Shown here: positions 6,996-17,944 of the stretch, one piece after another
How positions within the stretch are numbered: position 1 is the stretch's first letter
How the letters are laid out: each line of letters opens with the position of its first letter
DNA from: Rhizobiales bacterium Y(2018)
GTDB lineage: Bacteria > Pseudomonadota > Alphaproteobacteria > Rhizobiales > Aestuariivirgaceae
Direction of reading: 5' to 3'
NCBI GenBank assembly: GCA_005502925.1
Contig: SCPD01000024.1
Span: 1 to 64,000 of the forward strand
DNA: 64,000 nt
The notes under the pieces: generated by a model
Told to the model about the DNA's origin: nothing
Seen by the model: only the letters and a program-made list of their open reading frames with translations
Databases searched by the model: none
Position numbers and translations under genes: made by a program

Positions 6996-7063
6996 GATGT
7001 GAGGCCTCCCGTTTCTTCGTTTCTTGTCGGAGGAGCTTACCGCTCAGGCGCAGCCTGCCAAGC

Positions 7064-7077
7064 ATTACTGCCGTCAC
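7064..7077. promoter_or_regulatory. second copy of the candidate operator (ATTACTGCCGTCAC)
   Basis: It is identical at 12 of 14 positions to the site at 5873-5886 and lies 69 bp upstream of the FAD monooxygenase start, a usual place for a promoter-proximal operator. The arms are less perfect here (TTAC/GTCA). The recurrence is what is seen; the regulatory role is inferred. Confidence 0.3.
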
Positions 7078-7109
7078 TATTGCCCACAGTTTTTCGGAAC
7101 CAGGGCATT

Positions 7110-7300
7110 CCCCCTTCTCCCGCTTGCGGGAGAAGGTGCCCGATAGGGCGGATGAGGGTGCTGGTTCAGCTCACGACTGCTTTTCAAGAGAACAAAAATG
7201 ACGAAGCTTCAACACTTCCCGTGCTTGCGGCACTACAGAAGCTGAGAGAACACCCTCATCCGGCCTTCGGCCACCTTCTCCCGCAAGCGGGAGAAGGGGA
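7110..7300. repeat. dispersed repeat with TTCTCCCGC...GCGGGAGAA arms
   Basis: The gap of 343 bp between the monooxygenase and the transglycosylase is mostly this element. The left arm (7110-7160) contains a CTTCTCCCGC/GCGGGAGAAGG hairpin and then GGCGGATGAGGGTG. The right arm (7251-7299) is its inverted copy, CACCCTCATCCGGCCTTCGG followed by the same hairpin. About 90 bp of unrelated sequence lies between the arms. A near-identical copy is at 27246-27429. Elements of this shape are widespread in intergenic DNA of Hyphomicrobiales. Confidence 0.8.
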
Positions 7301-7338
7301 AATGAAGCCGACAGTTTACTGAGTTGAGAGAGGGGCTT

Positions 7339-8553
7339 CTACGACCCGGCCTTGCTCGTCTTGCTCGACGAGACCTGGCTGGAACTGCGCAGGCGCTGCA
7401 GCAGCGCGCGCGAGGGATGGCCGTCGGCGAGCAGGCCTTCGCGCTTCTGGAATTTGATGATGGCGAGACGCCCTGTGGGGCTCAGTATGCCATCGGACTT
7501 GCTCGCGTCATAACCCTTGTCCGCCATCAGATCCTCGAGCTCGCGGCGCTCCTCACGCGTCAAGGGCATCATGTCGGCGGGCCAGGCCTGCACGAACTCG
7601 GCGCCACCCTCGATGCGGTCGGCCAGATGCGCCACGGCGAGCGCGTAGGAGTCGGCGTTATTGTAGCGCTTGATGACCTCGAAATTCTTGAGCACCAGGA
7701 AGACCGGACCATTGCCGCCGGCCGGCTGATAGAAACGCGCGCCCTCGCTCGTCTGCGGCAAGGGCTTGCCGGTGATCCGGACGATGCCGAGCTTCGACCA
7801 GTCGCGCAAGGTCATGCTGGCATTCTTCTTCCACACCTTGCCGAAATCGAAACCGGTTGGAAGCTTCACCTCATAACCCCAGTCGCCGCCGCGCCGCCAC
7901 CCCTTCTCCTTCAGGAAGTTGGCGGTGGAGGCGAGCGAATCCGGCACGGAATTCCACAGGTCCTTGCGCCCGTCGCCATCCTGGTCGACCGCATAGGTCA
8001 GATAGTTGGACGGCATGAACTGGGTCTGGCCTATGGCGCCGGCCCAGGATCCGGTCATTTGCGATTTCTTGGCATGGCCGTCGCGGATCATTTCTTCCGC
8101 GGCAGACAATTCGGCGCGGAAATAATCGGAGCGATGGCCGCCATCAGCGAGGGCGGCGAGCGAGCCCAGCACGCTATGGTCGCCCATGTTCTTGCCGAAG
8201 TTGGATTCGATGCCCCAGATCGAGACCAGCGTTTCGGCGGGAATGCCGTATTTCTTCTCGATGGTGGCGATCGTGTCCTTCCACTCGGCCGCCTTTTCCT
8301 GGCCGGTCGCGATGCGCCGCGCCGAGACCCGGAGCTTGATGTAATCCTCGACGCTGGACAGGACTTCCGGCTGGCTGCGCGCCAGATCGAGAACGCTCTT
8401 ATAGGAGCTGGTCCACAGTGAGGCGACGAACCGGCCAATATTGCCGGGGCCATACATATATAAAGTGATACTGGAGGCGAGAGTCAGCACCGTCGCCACA
8501 CACAGCGCGCCGGTCTTCCACGACCTGAATCTAGGCCAGTTCCTCTTCGCCAT
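7339..8553 (-). CDS. lytic murein transglycosylase (MltB family)
   Basis: This 404-residue protein cleaves the MurNAc-GlcNAc bond of peptidoglycan with formation of 1,6-anhydroMurNAc. An N-terminal hydrophobic segment (residues 14-34) anchors or exports it. The SLT/MltB domain follows, with the catalytic glutamate at residue 116 in SIWGIESNFG, and then the conserved GAIGQTQFMPSNY and QDGDGRKDLWN segments. The C-terminal 60 residues match a peptidoglycan-binding domain (GYDASKSDGILSPTGRLAI). The ATG at 8553 is preferred over a GTG two codons earlier because GGAG lies five bases before it. Confidence 0.9.
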   Translation of the reverse strand: MAKRNWPRFRSWKTGALCVATVLTLASSITLYMYGPGNIGRFVASLWTSSYKSVLDLARSQPEVLSSVEDYIKLRVSARRIATGQEKAAEWKDTIATIEKKYGIPAETLVSIWGIESNFGKNMGDHSVLGSLAALADGGHRSDYFRAELSAAEEMIRDGHAKKSQMTGSWAGAIGQTQFMPSNYLTYAVDQDGDGRKDLWNSVPDSLASTANFLKEKGWRRGGDWGYEVKLPTGFDFGKVWKKNASMTLRDWSKLGIVRITGKPLPQTSEGARFYQPAGGNGPVFLVLKNFEVIKRYNNADSYALAVAHLADRIEGGAEFVQAWPADMMPLTREERRELEDLMADKGYDASKSDGILSPTGRLAIIKFQKREGLLADGHPSRALLQRLRSSSQVSSSKTSKAGS

Positions 8554-8672
8554 TCTCACTCCATTAACGGCGAATATGATTAAAATAAGGATACCAATCG
8601 AGACGATTTGCGGATCACGATCTTGTCAGCCGGATGTCCCTTAAGCTGATGATCGGGCTTAGAAATTGCCCT

Positions 8673-9548
8673 TTACGTCTTGGGCGGGGCGAAGACCGTC
8701 ACCGCCTTGGCCCTTATGCGGAAGGTGGCCGGCGTCTCGCTGACGATCTCGCCATCGGCATTAATGTCATGCGGCCTTTTGGTCCGGATCACGAGATCGG
8801 TCGCCGAAAAAGCCCTCACCTTTCGCCAATTTCCATGCGTGCCCCGGCGCAGCGACGGCGCCAAAGCCAGTAATTCCCACCAATGGTCGATCTCAAGGCT
8901 GTAGACATCGAGACGGCCGTCATCGGGCGCCGCGTCCTTCTCGACCGTCATGCCGCCGCCATAGAAGCGGCCATTGCCGACGCTGATCTGCACCGTCTTC
9001 ACCCGTTCGATCGTCCCGTCATGGTCGATCTCGACGGTGAAGGGCCGGCTCTGGCGCAGGAGATTGAAGGCGGCGAGCGCATAACCGAGCGTGCCCCAGC
9101 GCCGTTTTGCTTCCGCGGTCAGCTGGCGCGCCAAGGCGGCGGAAAAGCCGATGCTCGCCACATTGAAGAAGAAATGGCCGTTCACTTCGCCCAGATCGAC
9201 GGGACGGCGATGGCCGTCGATGATGATCTGCGCGGCGCGCGCCAGGTCGCGCGGCACGCCGATGGTGCGGGCGAAATCATTGGCGGTGCCGAGCGGCAGC
9301 ACGCCGAAGGGCAATTGCGTTTCCTGAAGGGCGGCCGCGGCGCCGTTGAGCGTGCCGTCGCCGCCGCCCAGGATCACCATGTCGACATGCTTCGCCTCGG
9401 CGCGGATGTCATCGCTCAGCGAGCGGCTGACATCGCGCTCGATCGTCTCGATGCCGGCGTCGTTGAGGCGCTCGATCGCGGCCCGCAAGGACTGACCGCC
9501 GCGGCGCGCCCGCCGGTTCGCGAAAATCAGGGCACGGGATTTCGGCAC
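8673..9548 (-). CDS. diacylglycerol kinase-family lipid kinase (YegS/DgkB type)
   Basis: This 291-residue protein has the nucleotide-binding motif GGGDGTLNG at residues 61-69 and PLGTANDFART near residue 85, both diagnostic of the DAGK catalytic domain. The family phosphorylates diacylglycerol or related lipids with ATP at the inner membrane face. The start is GTG. Immediately upstream lies the displaced end of an aldose-epimerase gene (9622-9718), so before the insertion described here this gene probably followed the sugar operon at 16-21 kb. Confidence 0.85.
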   Translation of the reverse strand: MPKSRALIFANRRARRGGQSLRAAIERLNDAGIETIERDVSRSLSDDIRAEAKHVDMVILGGGDGTLNGAAAALQETQLPFGVLPLGTANDFARTIGVPRDLARAAQIIIDGHRRPVDLGEVNGHFFFNVASIGFSAALARQLTAEAKRRWGTLGYALAAFNLLRQSRPFTVEIDHDGTIERVKTVQISVGNGRFYGGGMTVEKDAAPDDGRLDVYSLEIDHWWELLALAPSLRRGTHGNWRKVRAFSATDLVIRTKRPHDINADGEIVSETPATFRIRAKAVTVFAPPKT

Positions 9549-9621
9549 GGCGTCTCCGGATCAGGACGAGGGATGGGCCGGATGCTCTATGGTCGGGGCA
9601 AGGCGGATATGTGGCAGGAAA

Positions 9622-9718
9622 CTAGCTAGGGTTTCGCACCGGCAACGCACGGCTTTCGTCATCGAGGCCCGTAACTGGTCCCCCTGGCGTAAGGGCCTGG
9701 AGGCGCAGCGTCGTGGCG
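9622..9718 (-). pseudogene. displaced 3' end of an aldose-epimerase-like gene
   Basis: The minus strand encodes a tail reading TTLRLQALTPGGP... and ending in RALPVRNPS and a TAG stop. This aligns with the last residues of the intact epimerase at 16080-17078 (TTLRFQAFTPTGP... RALPVRIAR). At DNA level 9635-9718 and 16093-16176 align without gaps at 67 of 84 bases, and the last 16 bases (GCGCAGCGTCGTGGCG) are identical. The fragment stops five bases from the fabF stop codon. It has no start of its own and is read as a gene remnant. Confidence 0.75.
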
Positions 9719-9723
9719 GGCAA

Positions 9724-11004
9724 TCATGAGCCGATCGGTTCGTCCGCCCAGCGTCGGAACAACGCGCTGGCGTTGACTCCTCCGAAGCCGAAGCCATTGG
9801 AAATTGCGTAGTCCATCGCCATCGGCCGGGCGTGGCTTGCGACGAAGTCAATCCCATCGCCGGCCGGATCGGGCGCGCTCAGATTGAGTGTCGGCGGTGC
9901 CACTTGGTCCCTAAGCGCCAGGATCGCAAAGATGGCACCAAGCCCGCCGGCGGCGCCGAGCAGATGTCCTGTCGCCGATTTCGTCGCGCTGACAGCTATC
10001 GCGAATTCGCGACCGAACACGCTCTTAATCGCTTCGATCTCTCCCAGATCGCCTACCAGCGTAGAGGTCGCATGCGCGTTGAGGTGACGAACCTCGCGCG
10101 GCGAAATCCCCGCTTGGATAACCGCGATCTGCATGGCCCGGCGCGCGCCATCGCCGTCCTCGGGACCGGACGTGACATGGTGAGCATCCGCGGTCGTGCC
10201 GTAGCCTACAAGCTCGGCGACCGGTTTCGCACCGCGCGTGAGCGCGTGGCTCAATTCCTCGATAACCAGGATACCGGCTCCTTCACCCATGACGAAACCG
10301 TCCCGTGAGACATCGAAAGGCCGTGATGCTCGAGCCGGTGCGTCATTGAAGCCGACGGAAAGAGAGCGTGCGGCAGCAAAGCCACCGAGACTGACTGTGT
10401 TCATGCATGCTTCTGTCCCACCGCACACGGCGATATCTGCTTCGTTTGCGCGGATAAGGCGAGCCGCATCGCCGATCGCTTGGATGCCGGCCGCGCACGC
10501 CGTCACCGGCGCGCCGAGTGGGCCTTTGAATCTATGTCGGATCGAGATATGACCCGCCGCGAGATTCACCAAGAAGGACGGTATCGTAAACGGCGACAGG
10601 CGCCGGACGCCGCGCCGGTCGACCGTGCGCACCGCCTCGGTGATGGCGGGAAAACCGCCAATGCCCGAAGCGACGACCGTTGCAGTGCGTAAGCTGTCCG
10701 CTTCCGAAACAGGGTTCCACTTCGCCTGAGCGAGTGCCTCTCGTGCGGCGGCGAGGCCGAAGAGGATGAACCGGTCTACCTTGCGTTGATCCTTCTGCGC
10801 AAAGACGGTCATTGGATCGAAGCCAGCATCGTCTTCTTCGAGGGAGGGTACGACCCCGCCGATCTTAGCCGGCAGATCTCCCACCACGTCGTCCGGAAGC
10901 TTTCGGATGCCCGAACAACCGGCCAGGAGACGCGACCAAGACGTTTCGACATCGGCGGCGAGGGGCGTGACCGCACCCATGCCTGTTACAACAATCCGTC
11001 TCAT
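9724..11004 (-). CDS. fabF: beta-ketoacyl-ACP synthase II (FabF-like)
   Basis: This 426-residue condensing enzyme has the Cys-His-His triad: Cys170 (VTACAAG), His311 (NAHATST) and His347 (KSATGHLLGAAG). The family adds malonyl-ACP to acyl-ACP in fatty acid elongation. The gene stands alone, away from acpP or fabG, which suggests an extra copy and not the housekeeping enzyme. It lies in the putative inserted segment with a TetR regulator and an RND pump. A role in tolerance to a synthase inhibitor or in making a special acyl chain is possible but not shown. Confidence 0.85.
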   Translation of the reverse strand: MRRIVVTGMGAVTPLAADVETSWSRLLAGCSGIRKLPDDVVGDLPAKIGGVVPSLEEDDAGFDPMTVFAQKDQRKVDRFILFGLAAAREALAQAKWNPVSEADSLRTATVVASGIGGFPAITEAVRTVDRRGVRRLSPFTIPSFLVNLAAGHISIRHRFKGPLGAPVTACAAGIQAIGDAARLIRANEADIAVCGGTEACMNTVSLGGFAAARSLSVGFNDAPARASRPFDVSRDGFVMGEGAGILVIEELSHALTRGAKPVAELVGYGTTADAHHVTSGPEDGDGARRAMQIAVIQAGISPREVRHLNAHATSTLVGDLGEIEAIKSVFGREFAIAVSATKSATGHLLGAAGGLGAIFAILALRDQVAPPTLNLSAPDPAGDGIDFVASHARPMAMDYAISNGFGFGGVNASALFRRWADEPIGS

Positions 11005-11129
11005 CTATCGTCCTATCGATCTGGATAGGGAGGCAGCGATGCCCAGCCGTGGCCCAGTCCTGTATGATACGCGCGCATGTCGCTTTCGTCTTCCGGGACA
11101 CATGGCATTACGTTGAACCCGTCTTATGC

Positions 11130-11735
11130 TCACTGGTGCGGTCCTTTCTGGGCATCGCCCGCAGATGACACCGCCAGCACGCTTTCGGCGGCCGCTTGCA
11201 GGAACCGCTTCGAAAGCTGCTCGTCATTGACGGCCCGCGAGAGGAGCACCGCACCGACCATTGTCGAGAGAATGGCCATGGTCTTGCCGCCGGGCTCCTC
11301 GCCGTCGGCCTCGCCAATCCAGCTGCCGAGCATCTCGCTATATTCCCTGATCCCGGCTTCGAAGGACGCTCTCACGTCGGCGCCCTGCCTCGCAGCATCC
11401 GAGCCGAGCGCAACGACCGGGCAGCCGTCCGACCTTTCTGCGCGATGCTCCATGCTGAGATAGAACGCGATCACCGCGCCAAGCGGATCTTTTGGATTGG
11501 CTTCGGCTGCGATTGACCACCGGCGGAAGGCGCTCTCCATCGCCCGCCTGGATGCCTGCGCCGCCAGGTCGTCCTTGGATGTGAACTGCTTGTAGAAGGC
11601 GCCCTGGGTCAGCCCCGCACTCTCCATCAGGTCCTTCAGCCCGATGCCATCAAAGCCGTGCTTCCGAAAAAGGCGGCTTGCCACATTGATCACGGTTTCG
11701 CGGTTCTCCGCGGCCTGAATGCGACTTACCCGCAT
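11130..11735 (-). CDS. TetR/AcrR-family transcriptional regulator
   Basis: This 201-residue regulator has an N-terminal TetR helix-turn-helix at residues 13-57 (VINVASRLFRKHGFDGIGL... LTQGAFYKQF). The C-terminal effector domain resembles that of small-molecule-sensing repressors. The ATG at 11735 is chosen because the TetR domain normally begins about ten residues from the start. It is transcribed divergently from the RND genes across an 85-bp intergenic region with palindromes, the normal arrangement for a repressor controlling its efflux pump. Confidence 0.88.
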   Translation of the reverse strand: MRVSRIQAAENRETVINVASRLFRKHGFDGIGLKDLMESAGLTQGAFYKQFTSKDDLAAQASRRAMESAFRRWSIAAEANPKDPLGAVIAFYLSMEHRAERSDGCPVVALGSDAARQGADVRASFEAGIREYSEMLGSWIGEADGEEPGGKTMAILSTMVGAVLLSRAVNDEQLSKRFLQAAAESVLAVSSAGDAQKGPHQ

Positions 11736-11750
11736 CGCTGGTTTCCTTTT

Positions 11751-11783
11751 TAGATTGTGTTCGTAATCTATATACGATATAGA
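11751..11783. promoter_or_regulatory. palindromes in the tetR-RND intergenic region, likely operator
   Basis: Two inverted repeats abut in the divergent promoter region. TAGATT-N8-AATCTA spans 11751-11770 and TCTATAT-ACG-ATATAGA spans 11767-11783. The region is AT-rich compared with its surroundings. TetR dimers bind such palindromes, so this is the best candidate for autoregulation and repression of the efflux genes. Confidence 0.5.
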
Positions 11784-11820
11784 GGTCAAACGCAATCTAT
11801 TTTTTGATGAGGTCACGCGC

Positions 11821-12924
11821 ATGAAAAAGAGGACCGTTATTGTGCTGGGGGGCGTCTTGATCGCGATGACAGGGGGGGCGGCATTCGCCACATTTGCCAT
11901 TCCCACGAAGGAAGCCTCTGCAGTGGGCGACCCTAGGCAGGAGCCGCCGATCGTCAGTTTGGTGACGGCCGAGCCGGTGACCGGATCCGAGCGCGGTTTC
12001 ACCGGCACCATCGGGGCGAGGGTTGAGAGCGATCTCGGCTTTCGCGTACCGGGCAAGATTGTGGAACGGCTCGTGGACGTCGGCCAGGAAGTCAAATCCG
12101 GTCAGCCGTTGATGCGGATAGACGATACCGACCTGCGCTTCGCGCTCGCGGCGAAGCGCAATGCAGTTGCCGCAGCGCGCGCACTCGTTGTTCAGGCGGA
12201 ACCGGATGAACGGCGATACGCCAAACTGCTCGCCGGTGGGTGGGTTCCACGGCAGCGCCACGAGCAGGCGCGGGCTGCGTTGGATACGGCCGAGGCACAG
12301 CTTGCTGCCGCCGATGCCGAGGCAAGGGTCGCCGAGAACGAAGCAGCCTATGCGGTGCTGTTGGCGGACGCGGATGGAACGGTGGTTGAAACGTTGGGCG
12401 AGCCTGGTCAGGTCGTCGCCTCCGGTCAGACAGTGGTCCGGGTTGCCCAGGCCGGCCCGCGCGAAGCGGTGGTGGCGCTTCCCGAAACAATCCGGCCGGC
12501 GATCGGGTCGGCGGCCGAGGCCAGCCTGTATGGCGGCGATGGACGCCGCTATACGGCACATCTCCGGCAATTATCGAACTCCGCCGATGCCAAGACGCGT
12601 ACCTATGAGGCCCGTTATGTGCTCGACGGTGCCGCGGCAGCGCCGCTTGGCGCAACGGTAACCATTCGGCTAGCAAGCCAGGCACGCCAGCCGGAAGTCC
12701 AGGTGCCGCTCGGAGCCCTGCTCGATGACGGCGAGAGGACCGGCGTCTGGGTCTTGGATAGCGCCAACTCGACCGTACGCTTTCTGCCCGTCAAACTCAT
12801 TCGAGTGACCGGCGAAGCCGCCGTGATCTCCGGACTGAACTCCAGCGATCGGATTGTATCGCTCGGCGCTCATCTCCTGCGGGAGGGCGCTCGTGTCAGG
12901 ACTGCATCCGTAAGCGGGGGCTGA
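11821..12924 (+). CDS. RND efflux periplasmic adaptor subunit (HlyD/AcrA family)
   Basis: This 367-residue membrane fusion protein links the inner membrane pump to an outer membrane channel. An N-terminal hydrophobic signal (residues 6-26) precedes the biotinyl-lipoyl-like half motif GARVESDLGFRVPGKIVE and VDVGQEVKSGQPLMRID. A short alpha-hairpin region (ALAAKRN... DAEARVAENEA) follows, then the second lipoyl half (ADADGTVVETLGEPGQVV) and the beta-barrel. The stop is two bases before the pump gene. No outer membrane factor is encoded here, so a shared TolC-like protein is presumably used. Confidence 0.9.
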   Translation: MKKRTVIVLGGVLIAMTGGAAFATFAIPTKEASAVGDPRQEPPIVSLVTAEPVTGSERGFTGTIGARVESDLGFRVPGKIVERLVDVGQEVKSGQPLMRIDDTDLRFALAAKRNAVAAARALVVQAEPDERRYAKLLAGGWVPRQRHEQARAALDTAEAQLAAADAEARVAENEAAYAVLLADADGTVVETLGEPGQVVASGQTVVRVAQAGPREAVVALPETIRPAIGSAAEASLYGGDGRRYTAHLRQLSNSADAKTRTYEARYVLDGAAAAPLGATVTIRLASQARQPEVQVPLGALLDDGERTGVWVLDSANSTVRFLPVKLIRVTGEAAVISGLNSSDRIVSLGAHLLREGARVRTASVSGG

Positions 12925-12926
12925 CG

Positions 12927-15900
12927 ATGAACCTCAATCTTTCCGCGATCGCCGTTCGCGAACGCGCCGTCACCCTCTTCTTTATCCTCCTGCTGGTGGC
13001 CGCCGGTGCCTACGCTTTCGTCATGCTCGGGCGGGCGGAGGACCCCAACTTCACCATCAAGACCCTGACGGTCACGACGGCATGGCCGGGTGCCACGGCG
13101 CGCGAGATGCAGGACCTCGTCGCCGAACCGCTGGAGAAGCGGCTTCAGGAGCTGACATGGTACGACCGGGTGGAGACGACCACGCGGCCGGGTTATGCGT
13201 ATATGACGCTTACGCTGAAAGACAGCACACCGCCATCCGCCGTGCAGGAGGAGTTCTACCAGGCCCGCAAGAAGCTCGGGGACGAAGCCCGCAACCTGCC
13301 GTCCGGCGTCTATGGGCCCTTCGTCAACGACGAATATTCGGATGTGAGCTTCGCCCTTTATGCCCTGAAAGCGCCGGGCATGCCGATGCGTGAGCTGGCC
13401 CGGCAGGCCGAGGTGATCCGCCAGGACCTCCTGCACGTGCCCGGCGTCAAGAAGATCAACATCCTGGGTGAACGTCCCGAACAGATATTCGTCGAGTTCT
13501 CCTATGCCAGGCTGGCAACCCTCGGTGTGTCGGCGCAGGACATCGTCGCCGCCTTGCAGCGGCAGAACACCGTCACCCCGGCGGGCTCGATCGACACAAA
13601 GGGGCCGCAGGTCTTCATTCGGATCGACGGCGCTTATGACAGCGTTCAGGCGATCGCCGACACGCCGATTGTCGCGGCGGGTCGAACGCTGAAGCTCTCC
13701 GACATCGCGGAGGTCCGCCGCGGCTATGAAGACCCTCCCACCTACCTCATCCGGCACCGGAGCGAGCCCATCATCATGCTCGCGGCGGTGATGCAGGAGG
13801 GCTGGGATGGTCTGGCGCTCGGCAAGGCGCTCGAGGACAGGACGGCGGCCATCGCACAGACGCTGCCGCTCGGGATGACACTCGACAAGGTGACCGACCA
13901 GGCTGTCAACATCGCCTCGGCGGTCGACGAATTCATGGTGAAGTTCGCGATGGCGCTGGGCGTGGTGCTGCTGGTGAGCCTCCTCAGCCTCGGATGGCGC
14001 GTCGGCATCGTCGTGGCAGCTGCCGTCCCCCTGACGCTTGCCGTCGTGTTCCTCATCATGCTGGAAACCGGCCGGTTCTTCGACCGCATCACGCTCGGTG
14101 CCCTCATCCTGGCGCTCGGCCTTCTCGTCGACGACGCCATCATCGCCATCGAGGTGATGGTGGTGAAGATGGAAGAGGGCATGGACCGCATCAAGGCCGC
14201 GGCCTATGCGTGGAGCCACACCGCGGCGCCGATGCTGTCCGGAACCCTTGTGACGGTCGCCGGCTTCCTGCCAGTCGGCTTCGCGCCCTCGACGGCCGGC
14301 GAATACGCCGGCAACATCTTCTGGGTCGTGGGGTTCGCGCTCATGGTTTCCTGGATCGTCGCGGTGGCCTTCACGCCCTATCTCGGCGTGAAGATGCTGC
14401 CCGCGATCAAACCGATCGAAGGCGGTCACCATGCGATCTACGGCACGCCGAATTATCGGCGTCTGCGGCAACTCATCACCTTTGCTGTCCGCCATAAGTT
14501 CGTGACCTGCGGCATCGTCGGTATCGCCTTTGCGCTGTCCGTCATCGGCATGAGTGGCGTCAAGCAGCAATTCTTCCCGACATCCGATCGTCCCGAAGTG
14601 CTGGTGGAGGTTCGCCTGCCGGAAGGAACCAGCATCGAGACGACGACGGCTGCGGTCGAAAAGCTCGAGCACTGGCTCGACAAGCAGCCCGAGGCCAAGA
14701 TCGTCACGAGCTATGTCGGCCAGGGCGCGCCGCGGTTCTTCCTGGCGCTGTCGCCGGAGCTGCCTGATCCTGCCTTCGCCAAGATCGTCGTGCTGACAAC
14801 GGACGCGGAGGCGCGTGAAGCTCTGAAGCACCGGCTCCGTGAGGCGGTGGCCCAGGGGCTCACGCCCGAGGCTTATGTGCGCGTCACACAGTTCGTCTTC
14901 GGTCCCCCATCCGTCTTCCCGGTCGAGTTCCGGATCATGGGGCCCGATCCCGCGCAACTCTACGCCATTTCCGAAAAGGCGCTCGACATCATGCGGAGCG
15001 TCCCCGACGTGCGGGAGGCCAACCGCGACTGGGGCAACCGTACGCCCGTGCTGCGCTTCGTGCCCGATCAGGATCGGCTGAACCTCATCGGCCTCTCGCC
15101 AGCGGAGGTCGGCCAGCAGCTCCAGTTCCTGCTCACCGGCGTTCCCGTCACGCAGGTTCGCGAGGACATCCGCAATGTGCCCGTCGTGGCGCGCAGCGCC
15201 GGGGCTGAGCGGTTGGATCCGGCGCGGCTGGCGGATTTTTCGCTGATGAGCCGGGACGGCCGGCAGGTTCCGCTCGATCAGATCGGACACTCCGAAATCC
15301 GCCTGGAAGAGCCGATCCTGAAGCGTCGCGATCGCACAGCCGTGATCACGGTCCGCTCCGATATCAATGAGGCCACGCAGCCTCCGGAGGTCTCCAAGCA
15401 GGTTATGACGGCGCTGCAGCCGCTCATTGCATCTCTTCCGGCCGGCTACCGCATCGAAATGGGCGGATCGATTGAGGAGGCCACTAAGGCAAACGACGCG
15501 TTGGGCAAGATCTTCCCGGCCATGATAGCGGCCACGCTGATCATCATCATGCTGCAGGTGCGATCCTTCTCGACGATGGCCATGGTGCTGCTGACGGCGC
15601 CGCTCGGCCTTGTTGGCGTCGTACCTGCGCTCCTCATCTTCAACCAACCCTTCGGATTCAATGCCATCCTGGGCCTGACAGGATTGGCCGGCATCCTCAT
15701 GCGCAATACGCTGATCCTGACCGAACAGATCAAGGAGAACCGCGCGGCCGGCCTCGACGCCTATCACGCCGTGGTCGAGGCCACTGTGCAACGCACGCGG
15801 CCTGTGGTCCTGACGGCACTTGCCGCCGTGCTGGCCTTCATCCCTCTCACACACTCCGTCTTCTGGGGATCGATGGCCTATACGCTGATCGGTGGTACTG

Positions 15901-16028
15901 CCGTCGGTACGGTGCTGATTCTGCTTTTCCTTCCTGCGCTCTATGCCGCCTGGTTCCGGATCAAGCCGGCTGCGGGTGATATCCATGAGGTTTCGACGGA
16001 GGCACCGGGACTGCGAGCAGTTGCGTGA
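12927..16028 (+). CDS. RND-family multidrug efflux permease (AcrB/MdtC type)
   Basis: This 1033-residue pump has 12 predicted membrane helices and two large periplasmic loops, the normal size of the HAE1 group. The proton-relay aspartate pair appears in helix 4 as LGLLVDDAIIAIEV near residues 400-412. The ending helices contain AILGLTGLAGILMRN and RTRPVVLTALAA, both conserved in the family. It forms a tripartite pump with the adaptor upstream. Substrates cannot be read from sequence; control by the divergent TetR gene is likely. Confidence 0.92.
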   Translation: MNLNLSAIAVRERAVTLFFILLLVAAGAYAFVMLGRAEDPNFTIKTLTVTTAWPGATAREMQDLVAEPLEKRLQELTWYDRVETTTRPGYAYMTLTLKDSTPPSAVQEEFYQARKKLGDEARNLPSGVYGPFVNDEYSDVSFALYALKAPGMPMRELARQAEVIRQDLLHVPGVKKINILGERPEQIFVEFSYARLATLGVSAQDIVAALQRQNTVTPAGSIDTKGPQVFIRIDGAYDSVQAIADTPIVAAGRTLKLSDIAEVRRGYEDPPTYLIRHRSEPIIMLAAVMQEGWDGLALGKALEDRTAAIAQTLPLGMTLDKVTDQAVNIASAVDEFMVKFAMALGVVLLVSLLSLGWRVGIVVAAAVPLTLAVVFLIMLETGRFFDRITLGALILALGLLVDDAIIAIEVMVVKMEEGMDRIKAAAYAWSHTAAPMLSGTLVTVAGFLPVGFAPSTAGEYAGNIFWVVGFALMVSWIVAVAFTPYLGVKMLPAIKPIEGGHHAIYGTPNYRRLRQLITFAVRHKFVTCGIVGIAFALSVIGMSGVKQQFFPTSDRPEVLVEVRLPEGTSIETTTAAVEKLEHWLDKQPEAKIVTSYVGQGAPRFFLALSPELPDPAFAKIVVLTTDAEAREALKHRLREAVAQGLTPEAYVRVTQFVFGPPSVFPVEFRIMGPDPAQLYAISEKALDIMRSVPDVREANRDWGNRTPVLRFVPDQDRLNLIGLSPAEVGQQLQFLLTGVPVTQVREDIRNVPVVARSAGAERLDPARLADFSLMSRDGRQVPLDQIGHSEIRLEEPILKRRDRTAVITVRSDINEATQPPEVSKQVMTALQPLIASLPAGYRIEMGGSIEEATKANDALGKIFPAMIAATLIIIMLQVRSFSTMAMVLLTAPLGLVGVVPALLIFNQPFGFNAILGLTGLAGILMRNTLILTEQIKENRAAGLDAYHAVVEATVQRTRPVVLTALAAVLAFIPLTHSVFWGSMAYTLIGGTAVGTVLILLFLPALYAAWFRIKPAAGDIHEVSTEAPGLRAVA

Positions 16029-16079
16029 TTGCAAGGCCCTGCCTCGTCCGAGATAGAAAGACAAAGGCGGGCGCCACGC

Positions 16080-17078
16080 TCATCTTGCAATGCGCACCGG
16101 CAACGCGCGGCCTTCGCCGTCGAGAGCAGTGATGGGACCCGTCGGCGTAAAAGCCTGGAAGCGCAGCGTCGTGGCGAGTTCGTCGCCCGGTTTGAGCGTG
16201 AGCAGCGCGCCGCCCGCCTGTTTCGCCTTGGCGAGGCCCCAGGCCGGCCAGGTCGTGTTGGGCTCGATGCCGATGAGGCGGGTGCGGTTGAACCAGGGCG
16301 CATCCGGATTGCCGGCGAGCTCATACCAGAGCCAGGCGCAGGGAAAGCGTTTCTCGTCCCAGGACAAAGCGACGGCCACCTTGTTGTCGAGGCGGCGCAC
16401 CGCGATCCAGGCGTCGTCATCGAAATCGGTGAGATAGGCCAGACTTGCCATCGGCTCCTGCGGCTGGCTCAGATCGAAGGCGCCGGTCTTGCCGGCGACG
16501 ATCGGCCATCGGCCTTCGGCGCCGAGCGCCAAGGGATTGCTGGCCAGATCATGGCTGGTGCAGACCCGCGCTTTGCGGGCGCCCGAGGTGATCTCGATCG
16601 GGGCGGCGAGGAGATCTGTCCCCAAGGTCGGGTGATGGCCCCACATCACCTCGATCGGGCGTGACCCGGTCATGCTGAGATGCTCGGTCAAAATCAGGAG
16701 ATCGCCTTCGAGGCGTATTTCGCGCCGCATGGTCACGGGCACGATGTCGAAACGCCGCGAGAGGACGATGCGGTCGACGGCGCTCGCCACCACATCCCAG
16801 GGCGTAATCGCGCCTTCGCCATGAAAGCCGTGGAACGCCCCGTCGAAGTCGCAGGCATCGCCGGCATTGGGAAAGAGCAGGGGCCAGCCGCCGGTAAAAC
16901 GCGTCAGGAATTCGGGCTCGTCACGCGCCGCGCCACTGGCGATCGGTTCATCGGTCACCGGCCAGGGGACTTCGCCCAGCACATCGAGGCCGCTTGCCTT
17001 GACGGTGATACGCGTGATGCTGCCGCCGACTTGGCAGCTGACCGCGACCTGGAGATCGGCGCTTTCGAGGTTGATCAT
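16080..17078 (-). CDS. aldose 1-epimerase (galactose mutarotase)-family protein
   Basis: This 332-residue protein has the mutarotase fold. Catalytic-site candidates are the histidines in GAFHGFHGEG near residue 80 and WGHHPTLG near residue 165, and the glutamate in IGIEPNTTW near residue 285. The family interconverts alpha and beta anomers of free sugars. Its ATG overlaps the stop of the permease gene upstream as ATGA, so it is the last gene of the sugar ABC operon. Its 3' 84 bases have a diverged direct copy at 9635-9718, which suggests that its end was exchanged during an insertion event. Confidence 0.85.
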   Translation of the reverse strand: MINLESADLQVAVSCQVGGSITRITVKASGLDVLGEVPWPVTDEPIASGAARDEPEFLTRFTGGWPLLFPNAGDACDFDGAFHGFHGEGAITPWDVVASAVDRIVLSRRFDIVPVTMRREIRLEGDLLILTEHLSMTGSRPIEVMWGHHPTLGTDLLAAPIEITSGARKARVCTSHDLASNPLALGAEGRWPIVAGKTGAFDLSQPQEPMASLAYLTDFDDDAWIAVRRLDNKVAVALSWDEKRFPCAWLWYELAGNPDAPWFNRTRLIGIEPNTTWPAWGLAKAKQAGGALLTLKPGDELATTLRFQAFTPTGPITALDGEGRALPVRIAR

Positions 17079-17944
17079 TTGATGGCTCCGGCCATGAGGC
17101 CGCGGATGAAATGCTTCTGGAAGGCAATATAGAGAATGAACATCGGGGCGCTGGCGATCACCATGCCGGCCATGGTCAAGGGCACCTGGTTGTTGTAGCG
17201 GCCCTGGAAGACGCTGATGCCGGCCATCAGCGTCCGCTTGGCATCTTCCTGCAGAAAGATGATGGCGATCAAGAGGTCGTTCCAGACATAAAGCGAGTTC
17301 ACCACCACCAGCGTCATCAATGCCGGCAGCGACAGCGGCAGCACGATCTTCCACAGGATCAAGAGATCGCCGGCGCCGTCGAGCTTCGCCGATTCGAACA
17401 ATTCCTTCGGCACGGTACGGAAGAAGGTGGTGAGCAGATAGACCGAAAAGGGCGTGATCAGGCCGGCATAGATGATGATGGCGCCCTGATAGGTGCTGAT
17501 CAGATCGAGCTGGGTATAGAGCACGAAGAGCGGCACGATCATCACCACCGGCGGCACCGCCATCAGCGAGGTGCTGAGCGCCAGCAGCGTGTCGCGGCCC
17601 TTGAACTCCATCCGCGCAATCGCGTAGGCGGCGAGGCATGAGACCACGATACTGAGCGCGACCGACCCCACCACCAGAATGAAGCTGTTGACCATCCAGG
17701 CGAGGAACGGGCTGTCGACGAGCACGGCGCGGAAATTATCGAGGATCGGCGCATCGGGCAGGCCGAGCTTGTCGATCGCATATTCCTCCTCGCTCTTGAG
17801 CGCCGTCATGATCATGTAGAAGGTCGGCACCAGAGCGACGAAGGAGGCGATGAGGAGGACACCCTGCTTGAGCGCATCGCCGAGCGCGGTCTGCGTGCGG
17901 GCGCGGCGTCTTCTGCCCTGAGTGGCGGTCTCGGCCATGGTCAT
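17075..17944 (-). CDS. carbohydrate ABC transporter permease (MalG-like)
   Basis: This 289-residue inner membrane permease has about six hydrophobic segments. The EAA-type coupling loop ESAKLDGAGDLLILWKIVLP near residue 205 contacts the ATPase. The start MTMAETA at 17944 overlaps the stop of the partner permease as ATGA and is preferred over the ATG at 17938. No ATP-binding subunit follows in this operon. Confidence 0.9.
   Translation of the reverse strand: MTMAETATQGRRRRARTQTALGDALKQGVLLIASFVALVPTFYMIMTALKSEEEYAIDKLGLPDAPILDNFRAVLVDSPFLAWMVNSFILVVGSVALSIVVSCLAAYAIARMEFKGRDTLLALSTSLMAVPPVVMIVPLFVLYTQLDLISTYQGAIIIYAGLITPFSVYLLTTFFRTVPKELFESAKLDGAGDLLILWKIVLPLSLPALMTLVVVNSLYVWNDLLIAIIFLQEDAKRTLMAGISVFQGRYNNQVPLTMAGMVIASAPMFILYIAFQKHFIRGLMAGAIK

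Follow-up and report, generated by a model that had tools for sequence, protein, structure and literature searches.

A cassette of four genes (a fabF-like synthase gene, a TetR-family regulator gene and the adaptor and permease genes of an RND efflux system) is flanked by two copies of an epimerase-like gene's 3′ end in a 64,000-nt stretch from a soil bacterium, Rhizobiales bacterium Y(2018) (contig SCPD01000024.1, positions 1 to 64,000; the window in the following). On balance it is probable that this cassette landed at the 3′ terminus of the gene in a single event, in an ancestor shared by the window species and Aestuariivirga sp. YIM B02566 (G003; NZ_JAENHL010000007.1), duplicating the gene end and requiring no dedicated recombinase. 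The two copies form an ungapped direct repeat of 84 nt (9635-9718 and 16093-16176, spacing 6458), identical at 67/84 positions including the final 16, exactly as an earlier note on this DNA had described it. In a self-comparison of 8500-17500 the repeat scored 76.1 bits, as compared to a maximum of 32.8 bits in 100 dinucleotide shuffles, and a 201-nt query (9560-9760) matched only itself and 16093-16176 (E 1.8e-14), with no third copy in the 7.1-Mb genome. The terminal 16-mer was found only at these two places in the window with one mismatch allowed (0.01 expected). Thus, the score and the single partner in the genome rule out chance similarity as the origin of the repeat.

Homologues of the epimerase-like protein were searched in 60 genomes, its own included, at E 0.001, and eight gave a match. 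Besides the own genome, full-length homologues were found in G003 (93%), G002 (72%), Taklimakanibacter lacteus SYSU D60012 (G001; 64%), G008 (54%) and G027 (54%), with weak partial matches in G045 (34% over 78 residues) and G050 (40% over 67 residues); elsewhere in G003 there is also a partial match of 27%. Only in the own genome and G003 did the search return, in addition, a short match covering the gene end. The genus search comprised five genomes; in one of them, G004, which is 87% complete, the protein had no match. In G002, a lipid kinase gene (1852462-1853331) comes next after the epimerase-like gene (C1:1851396-1852364 matched), its start lying 76 bp past the stop codon, and blastn joined both flanks of the window at this empty site, which sits on a 7.18-Mb contig. 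G002 is without a close cassette (best RND match 41%, best adaptor match 34%). In G001 the order is epimerase-like gene, kinase fragment and SLT_2 gene, the kinase match (L016 7726-7854) having shrunk to 43 codons, and no lipid kinase was seen near the epimerase-like gene in the stretches examined of G008 and G027. The arrangements in G002 and G001 bear out the insertion of about 6.4 kb at the gene's 3′ end that the earlier note had proposed, as well as its suggestion that gene and lipid kinase were originally neighbours. G003 carries the whole block: the four genes recur there, both junctions fall at matching positions, and a decayed gene end of its own is present; no relative holding the block without the second end was encountered, G003 being the only one found with the block. 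An ancestral tandem pair of complete epimerase genes, the other arrangement that the note had set against an insertion, was likewise not seen among the 60 genomes, and tandem duplication of the gene was rejected, as G001, G002, G003, G008 and G027 have one full-length homologue each.

The features of the region are as follows (coordinates in the window).

8673..9548, minus strand: YegS-type lipid kinase gene, the original neighbour of the epimerase-like gene (NCBIfam NF009604, 441 bits, cut-off 274)

9549..9634, minus strand: original intergenic sequence plus the leader of the kinase, homologous to the G002 empty site (alignment of window, G003 and G002)

9635..9718, minus strand: the remnant, which is the epimerase-like gene's old 3′ end, displaced and decaying; 67/84 identical to 16093-16176 and running into old intergenic sequence common to G002

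9719..9723, no strand: junction between remnant and fabF stop codon, five bases, equal in length in G003 and made of other bases there

9724..11004, minus strand: beta-ketoacyl-ACP synthase gene (fabF-like), cassette (NCBIfam NF004970, 713 bits, and TIGR03150, 511 bits, both above cut-off)

11130..11735, minus strand: TetR-family regulator gene, cassette (Pfam TetR_N, 45.9 bits, cut-off 24)

11821..12924, plus strand: RND efflux periplasmic adaptor gene, cassette (TIGR01730, 197 bits, cut-off 94.9)

12927..16028, plus strand: RND efflux permease gene, cassette (Pfam ACR_tran, 461 bits, cut-off 28)

16029..16092, no strand: spacer of 64 bp, from which the epimerase-like gene takes its final three codons and stop

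16093..16176, minus strand: functional repeat copy, at the intact epimerase-like gene's 3′ end, with four differences to G003, all at third positions

16080..17078, minus strand: epimerase-like gene, open frame, DUF4432-like below cut-off, last codons altered by the insertion

The four genes fill the space between the repeat copies and leave little free room. The copy at 16093-16176 forms the C-terminus of the open frame at 16080-17078, and the copy on the fabF side translates as ATTLRLQALTPGGPVTGLDDESRALPVR versus ATTLRFQAFTPTGPITALDGEGRALPVR, both in a codon frame displaced by one base from the repeat limits. The earlier note had read both copies as C-termini of an aldose epimerase; the position at the end of the frame was confirmed, and the name is weakly supported, the sole Pfam match of the protein being DUF4432 at 27.8 bits (cut-off 32.5). 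No NCBIfam match, and no PDB match at E 0.01, was obtained.

The old gene end was identified from a three-way alignment. Beyond the repeat, the sequence that follows the remnants of the window species and of G003 is homologous to the interval between gene and kinase in G002, and the present gene end turns into the 64-bp spacer ahead of the RND gene. Consequently, the old end is the copy beside fabF, displaced as had been proposed. Sequence directly upstream of the kinase is kept across the window, G003 and G002, so that kinase expression may have been left intact by the insertion. The present gene differs from the remnants and from G002 in its final three codons and its stop, and these codons, the stop and the spacer are, by sequence comparison, demonstrably new. 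Among the five genus genomes the spacer had full-length matches only in the own genome and G003, other matches there being short (best E 0.0014); in the plasmid collection three records gave short matches (E 0.2-0.6), and matches to 15990-16200 covered only 23-36 nt. A hairpin in the spacer, possibly a two-way terminator, was equalled in 8/200 shuffles (z -1.85) and is not claimed here.

The origin of the repeated segment itself was assessed over the 84 nt in codon frame. Between the window and G003 the present ends differ at 4 positions and the remnants at 19, while each present end differs from its own remnant at 18/84 (window) or 15/84 (G003) positions. Relative to G002, the present ends show 18 and 22 differences and the remnants 25 and 24. 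With G001 as outgroup, three of the first 72 sites join ends and remnants against G002 and G001, and two join the remnants with G002 and G001 against the ends. When five trees of the ends were compared, a duplication within the lineage was best. A tree placing the present ends outside was 3.5 log units worse and is disfavoured, not rejected, on a repeat of only 84 nt (approximately unbiased (AU) test, p 0.058); the remaining trees joined the ends with G002 (AU p 0.52), paired the copies by genome (AU p 0.13) or placed the window remnant with G002 (AU p 0.25). We infer from these tree data, which are too short to be decisive and do not favour an outside end, that the repeated segment of the present end is probably a duplicate made within this lineage. 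With the segment grouping in this manner, the two ends probably matched each other when the block arrived, and the 20% by which they now differ would mostly be later change. The proposal that the incoming DNA supplied a replacement end thus holds for the last three codons, the stop and the spacer, whereas the repeated segment groups best as a duplicate from the lineage.

The remnants also bear on the timing of the insertion. Their differences between the window species and G003 fall 9, 2 and 8 on codon positions 1, 2 and 3, as compared to 10, 10 and 55 in the intact gene, so that positions 1 and 2 account for 11/19 differences in the remnants and for 20/75 across the intact gene as a whole (Fisher p 0.014). 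Set against the present ends alone, with their four third-position changes, the remnants show no significant contrast (p 0.09). At 19/84, remnant divergence greatly exceeds that of the intact gene's body (7.9%; p 2e-5). Judged by this pattern, the remnants have changed without coding constraint, unlike the intact gene. Unconstrained change in both remnants, in combination with junctions at the same places, indicates that the block most likely inserted once, before the window species and G003 separated.

The block itself has diverged unevenly since. Fourfold-site differences between the window and G003 amount to 11/263 in fabF, 15/99 in the TetR gene, 26/215 in the adaptor gene and 170/575 in the RND gene, against 247/1809 (13.7%) in ten pooled flank genes. 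Relative to these flanks fabF is lower (p 2e-6) and RND higher (p 6e-17), and TetR (p 0.65) and adaptor (p 0.60) are no different. Individual flank genes span 7.6% to 18.7%; the RND gene exceeds the highest of them (p 0.004), and fabF is indistinguishable from the least diverged (7.6%, p 0.17). The block and its edges were also compared in 22 segments of 300 nt with 14 cassettes besides that of G003, matches of 200 nt or less being left out. Thirteen segments (9600-13199 and 15900-16199) were closest to G003, and the nine at 13200-15899 were closest to Methylobacterium nodulans (4), G001 (3), Microvirga (1) and G153 (1). In fabF, the weakly diverged tract sets in some 115 bp into the gene, with 10/117 differences before and 27/1164 after a cut that was chosen after seeing the data (p 0.001), and for this reason the junction looks older than the exchange. 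In combination, these patterns of similarity suggest that, after the split, segments of the block probably underwent exchange with further copies of the cassette. As separate observations, the fabF differences to G003 are spread fairly evenly over codon positions (10, 8 and 19), which suggests relaxed constraint, though the frame is open in both, and about 99 bp between fabF and tetR in the window (11026-11124) are missing in G003.

Several of these results weigh against a single insertion of the proposed kind. Taken alone, the low divergence of fabF (4.2% at fourfold sites) and of the spacer (1/64), both below the 13.7% of the pooled flanks, would suggest a block younger than the split, and the remnants, at 19/84, are somewhat above that same rate (p 0.017). 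The 84-nt repeat makes the tree test weak, with a p of 0.058 for a foreign end and 0.52 for intact ends grouping with G002. Further, the data hold only three informative congeners, and the integrase search was one for tyrosine integrases, serine recombinases not having been searched genome-wide. The similarity of fabF and spacer would also fit two independent entries of the block, into the window species and into G003, or its transfer from one to the other once they had split, each remnant then being the native end of its genome. This is nevertheless very improbable, given the excess of remnant change over the functional gene body, which is change without constraint, the position of the junctions at the same places in both species, and a fabF junction that looks older than the similarity beginning about 115 bp inside the gene.

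A second feature of the region speaks for another route. Across the left junction, 15850-16300 is unusually alike in the window species and G003 (3.2-4.5%), as could be expected if a congener with the order epimerase end, RND and fabF had recombined homologously on the epimerase side and been joined illegitimately at the fabF side. One-sided joins made without a dedicated enzyme are described for homology-facilitated illegitimate recombination (PMC3240628). In the present case, however, no donor with that gene order, nor one with a homologous anchor, was found among the cassette loci examined. The same junctions in both genomes would moreover demand an event before the split or a second transfer, and the tree of the ends does not need a donor. 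We therefore consider such a capture improbable, although less so than separate entry.

An illegitimate insertion with a duplication of about 85 bp is the mechanism we prefer, an integrase-type event being ranked second. According to this proposal a horizontally moving four-gene cassette would have entered the 3′ end of the epimerase-like gene in the ancestor of the window species and G003, and about 84-88 bp of the gene end would have been duplicated. The copy joined to the gene body would have stayed in use, taking its last three codons and stop from the inserted DNA, and the copy joined to the lipid kinase would have been left to decay as a remnant. A dedicated recombinase was most likely not involved; the event could have been a template switch with backward re-entry or the repair of a widely staggered break, both of which are general target-duplicating mechanisms. 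The insertion would have been kept because both neighbouring genes stayed open, and exchange of block parts with other cassette copies would have followed the species split.

Mobile elements of other kinds were considered in turn. There is no transposase or integrase among the four genes, and the duplications made by insertion sequences (IS) and transposons are short (2-14 bp); insertion of such an element was rejected on the lack of a transposase and on the 84-nt duplication, which is too long. A tRNA-directed island was rejected as well, no tRNA being present in the window. A search for tyrosine integrases (PF00589) gave four matches in the own genome, none of them on the window contig, and serine recombinases were not searched beyond the block. 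In G003 there are also four PF00589 matches, the nearest on the same contig about 215 kb away. The longest identical run between the repeat copies is 16 nt at the fabF-side edge in the window and 20 nt inside the repeat in G003, where the run at the fabF-side edge is 9 nt in codon frame or 12 nt with the bases before, and comparison of the identical runs of the two genomes revealed no common strand-exchange core.

Islands at gene 3′ ends are known from prophage e14 in icd of Escherichia coli, where, according to PMC6379469 and PMC10111431, element-side sequence keeps the gene open, the old end is left as a pseudo-end at the far border, and identity blocks reach about 250 bp. The locus has the same geometry, with an insertion near the 3′ end, an open gene and the displaced old end (9635-9718) at the far border, and the 16-nt run of the window lies at the edge where a crossover would be expected. 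An element could accordingly have brought its own epimerase-like 3′ end by an attachment core, with a recombinase acting in trans or since lost displacing the old end. Still, G003's longest run lies inside the repeat, the four genes leave no room for an integrase, no tyrosine integrase match lies on the window contig and the nearest on the G003 contig is about 215 kb off, and other cassette loci are without a comparable repeat. The tree with a foreign end is disfavoured, and the window has no tRNA. The locus also differs from e14 in that no integrase was found, no attachment core was demonstrated and no phage genes are among the four, and in that the host gene itself is the probable source of the repeat. 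We thus regard an integrase-type insertion as unlikely, if less so than homologous capture. The parallel to islands at gene ends that the earlier note had drawn by analogy survives as regards the displaced end and the open gene, but found no support as regards a recombinase in a search for tyrosine integrases.

The cassette is not confined to this locus. An adaptor match at E 1e-60 was found in 47/397 genomes of the order. From the 30 loci of the adaptor search, 15 were examined in wider stretches, with the own locus and 14 others left out. All 15 have TetR, adaptor and RND matches, the RND match of L081 being split in three pieces, and six stretches hold a homologue of fabF as well, which in L072 and L081 is no more than about 70 bp from tetR and in the other four lies farther off. 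The four genes in the same order and orientation were found in L072, L081 and L082, and in the plasmid loci L104 and L105. G001 has TetR, adaptor and RND genes at another place (C18) with no fabF on the stretch, its closest fabF homologue lying on C23. Among plasmids, 542 records match somewhere, 36 of them over at least 80% of the block and 18/542 at 80-90% identity; the 15 plasmid records listed are from rhizobia-like genera and cover 89-97% of the block at 71.3-86.0% identity. Plasmids pMNOD01 of M. nodulans and pMVF16-2 of Microvirga sp. VF16 share the four genes, their order and orientation with the window, but not the flanks, the cassette here sitting in an epimerase-like gene end, and the gap between fabF and tetR is smaller here than in either plasmid. 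Behind the RND gene of pMNOD01 there is an IS6-like transposase. A literature search gave no paper uniting fabF, RND, TetR, symbiotic plasmid and efflux.

Direct repeats within 1.5 kb of the cassette were compared at 19 loci. The 84-nt repeat is present in the window and at L087 (G003), eleven loci have none and six have weaker ones. The last group includes a 43-nt direct repeat around the cassette of the Microvirga plasmid L105 (2549-2591 and 12334-12376; 77%, E 1.7e-4), and the best repeats at L074, L080, L082, L084 and L085 have E values of 0.007-0.025; all six are read as chance or unrelated. That the cassette itself makes long flanking repeats on landing was rejected, as the 17 other loci have no comparable repeat, L075 and L081 being partly covered (left flank cut by the stretch end and right flank shortened by the split RND match, respectively).

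In the wider neighbourhood, the open frames beyond the epimerase-like gene resemble a sugar ABC transporter, as judged by eye, and an Rfam scan of 7000-17200 gave nothing at gathering score. At 7106-7330 the window carries a dispersed inverted-pair repeat of REP/BIME-like kind, its half-unit matching at 82 or more sites of the own genome (40 of 143 candidate places scored), mostly in facing pairs about 130 bp apart. The same repeat is held by about 190 bp of extra sequence between remnant and lipid kinase in G003 (L014 10209-10408; matching window 7245-7301), which are absent from the window and G002.

More tentatively, the locus could be pictured as follows. The gene end would have served as the landing place for a plasmid-type efflux cassette, in a recombinase-free event with a target duplication of about 85 bp, and pieces of the cassette would since have been overwritten by homologous exchange with cassettes of other genera; the RND interior would as a result now be closer to cassettes elsewhere than to the copy in the sister species, with both junctions remaining old. 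This fuller account is possible, and we hold it with less confidence than the insertion as such. No new kind of element is revealed, and the locus is a fairly ordinary, well-documented scar of gene transfer. As a natural record it would indicate that an efflux cassette of plasmid type can lodge at the end of a gene without a recombinase of its own and leave the gene unbroken, with the empty site, the filled site and the decaying scar all available within one genus. The patchy divergence of the block suggests, in addition, that a copy settled in this manner can keep exchanging DNA with its relatives elsewhere.

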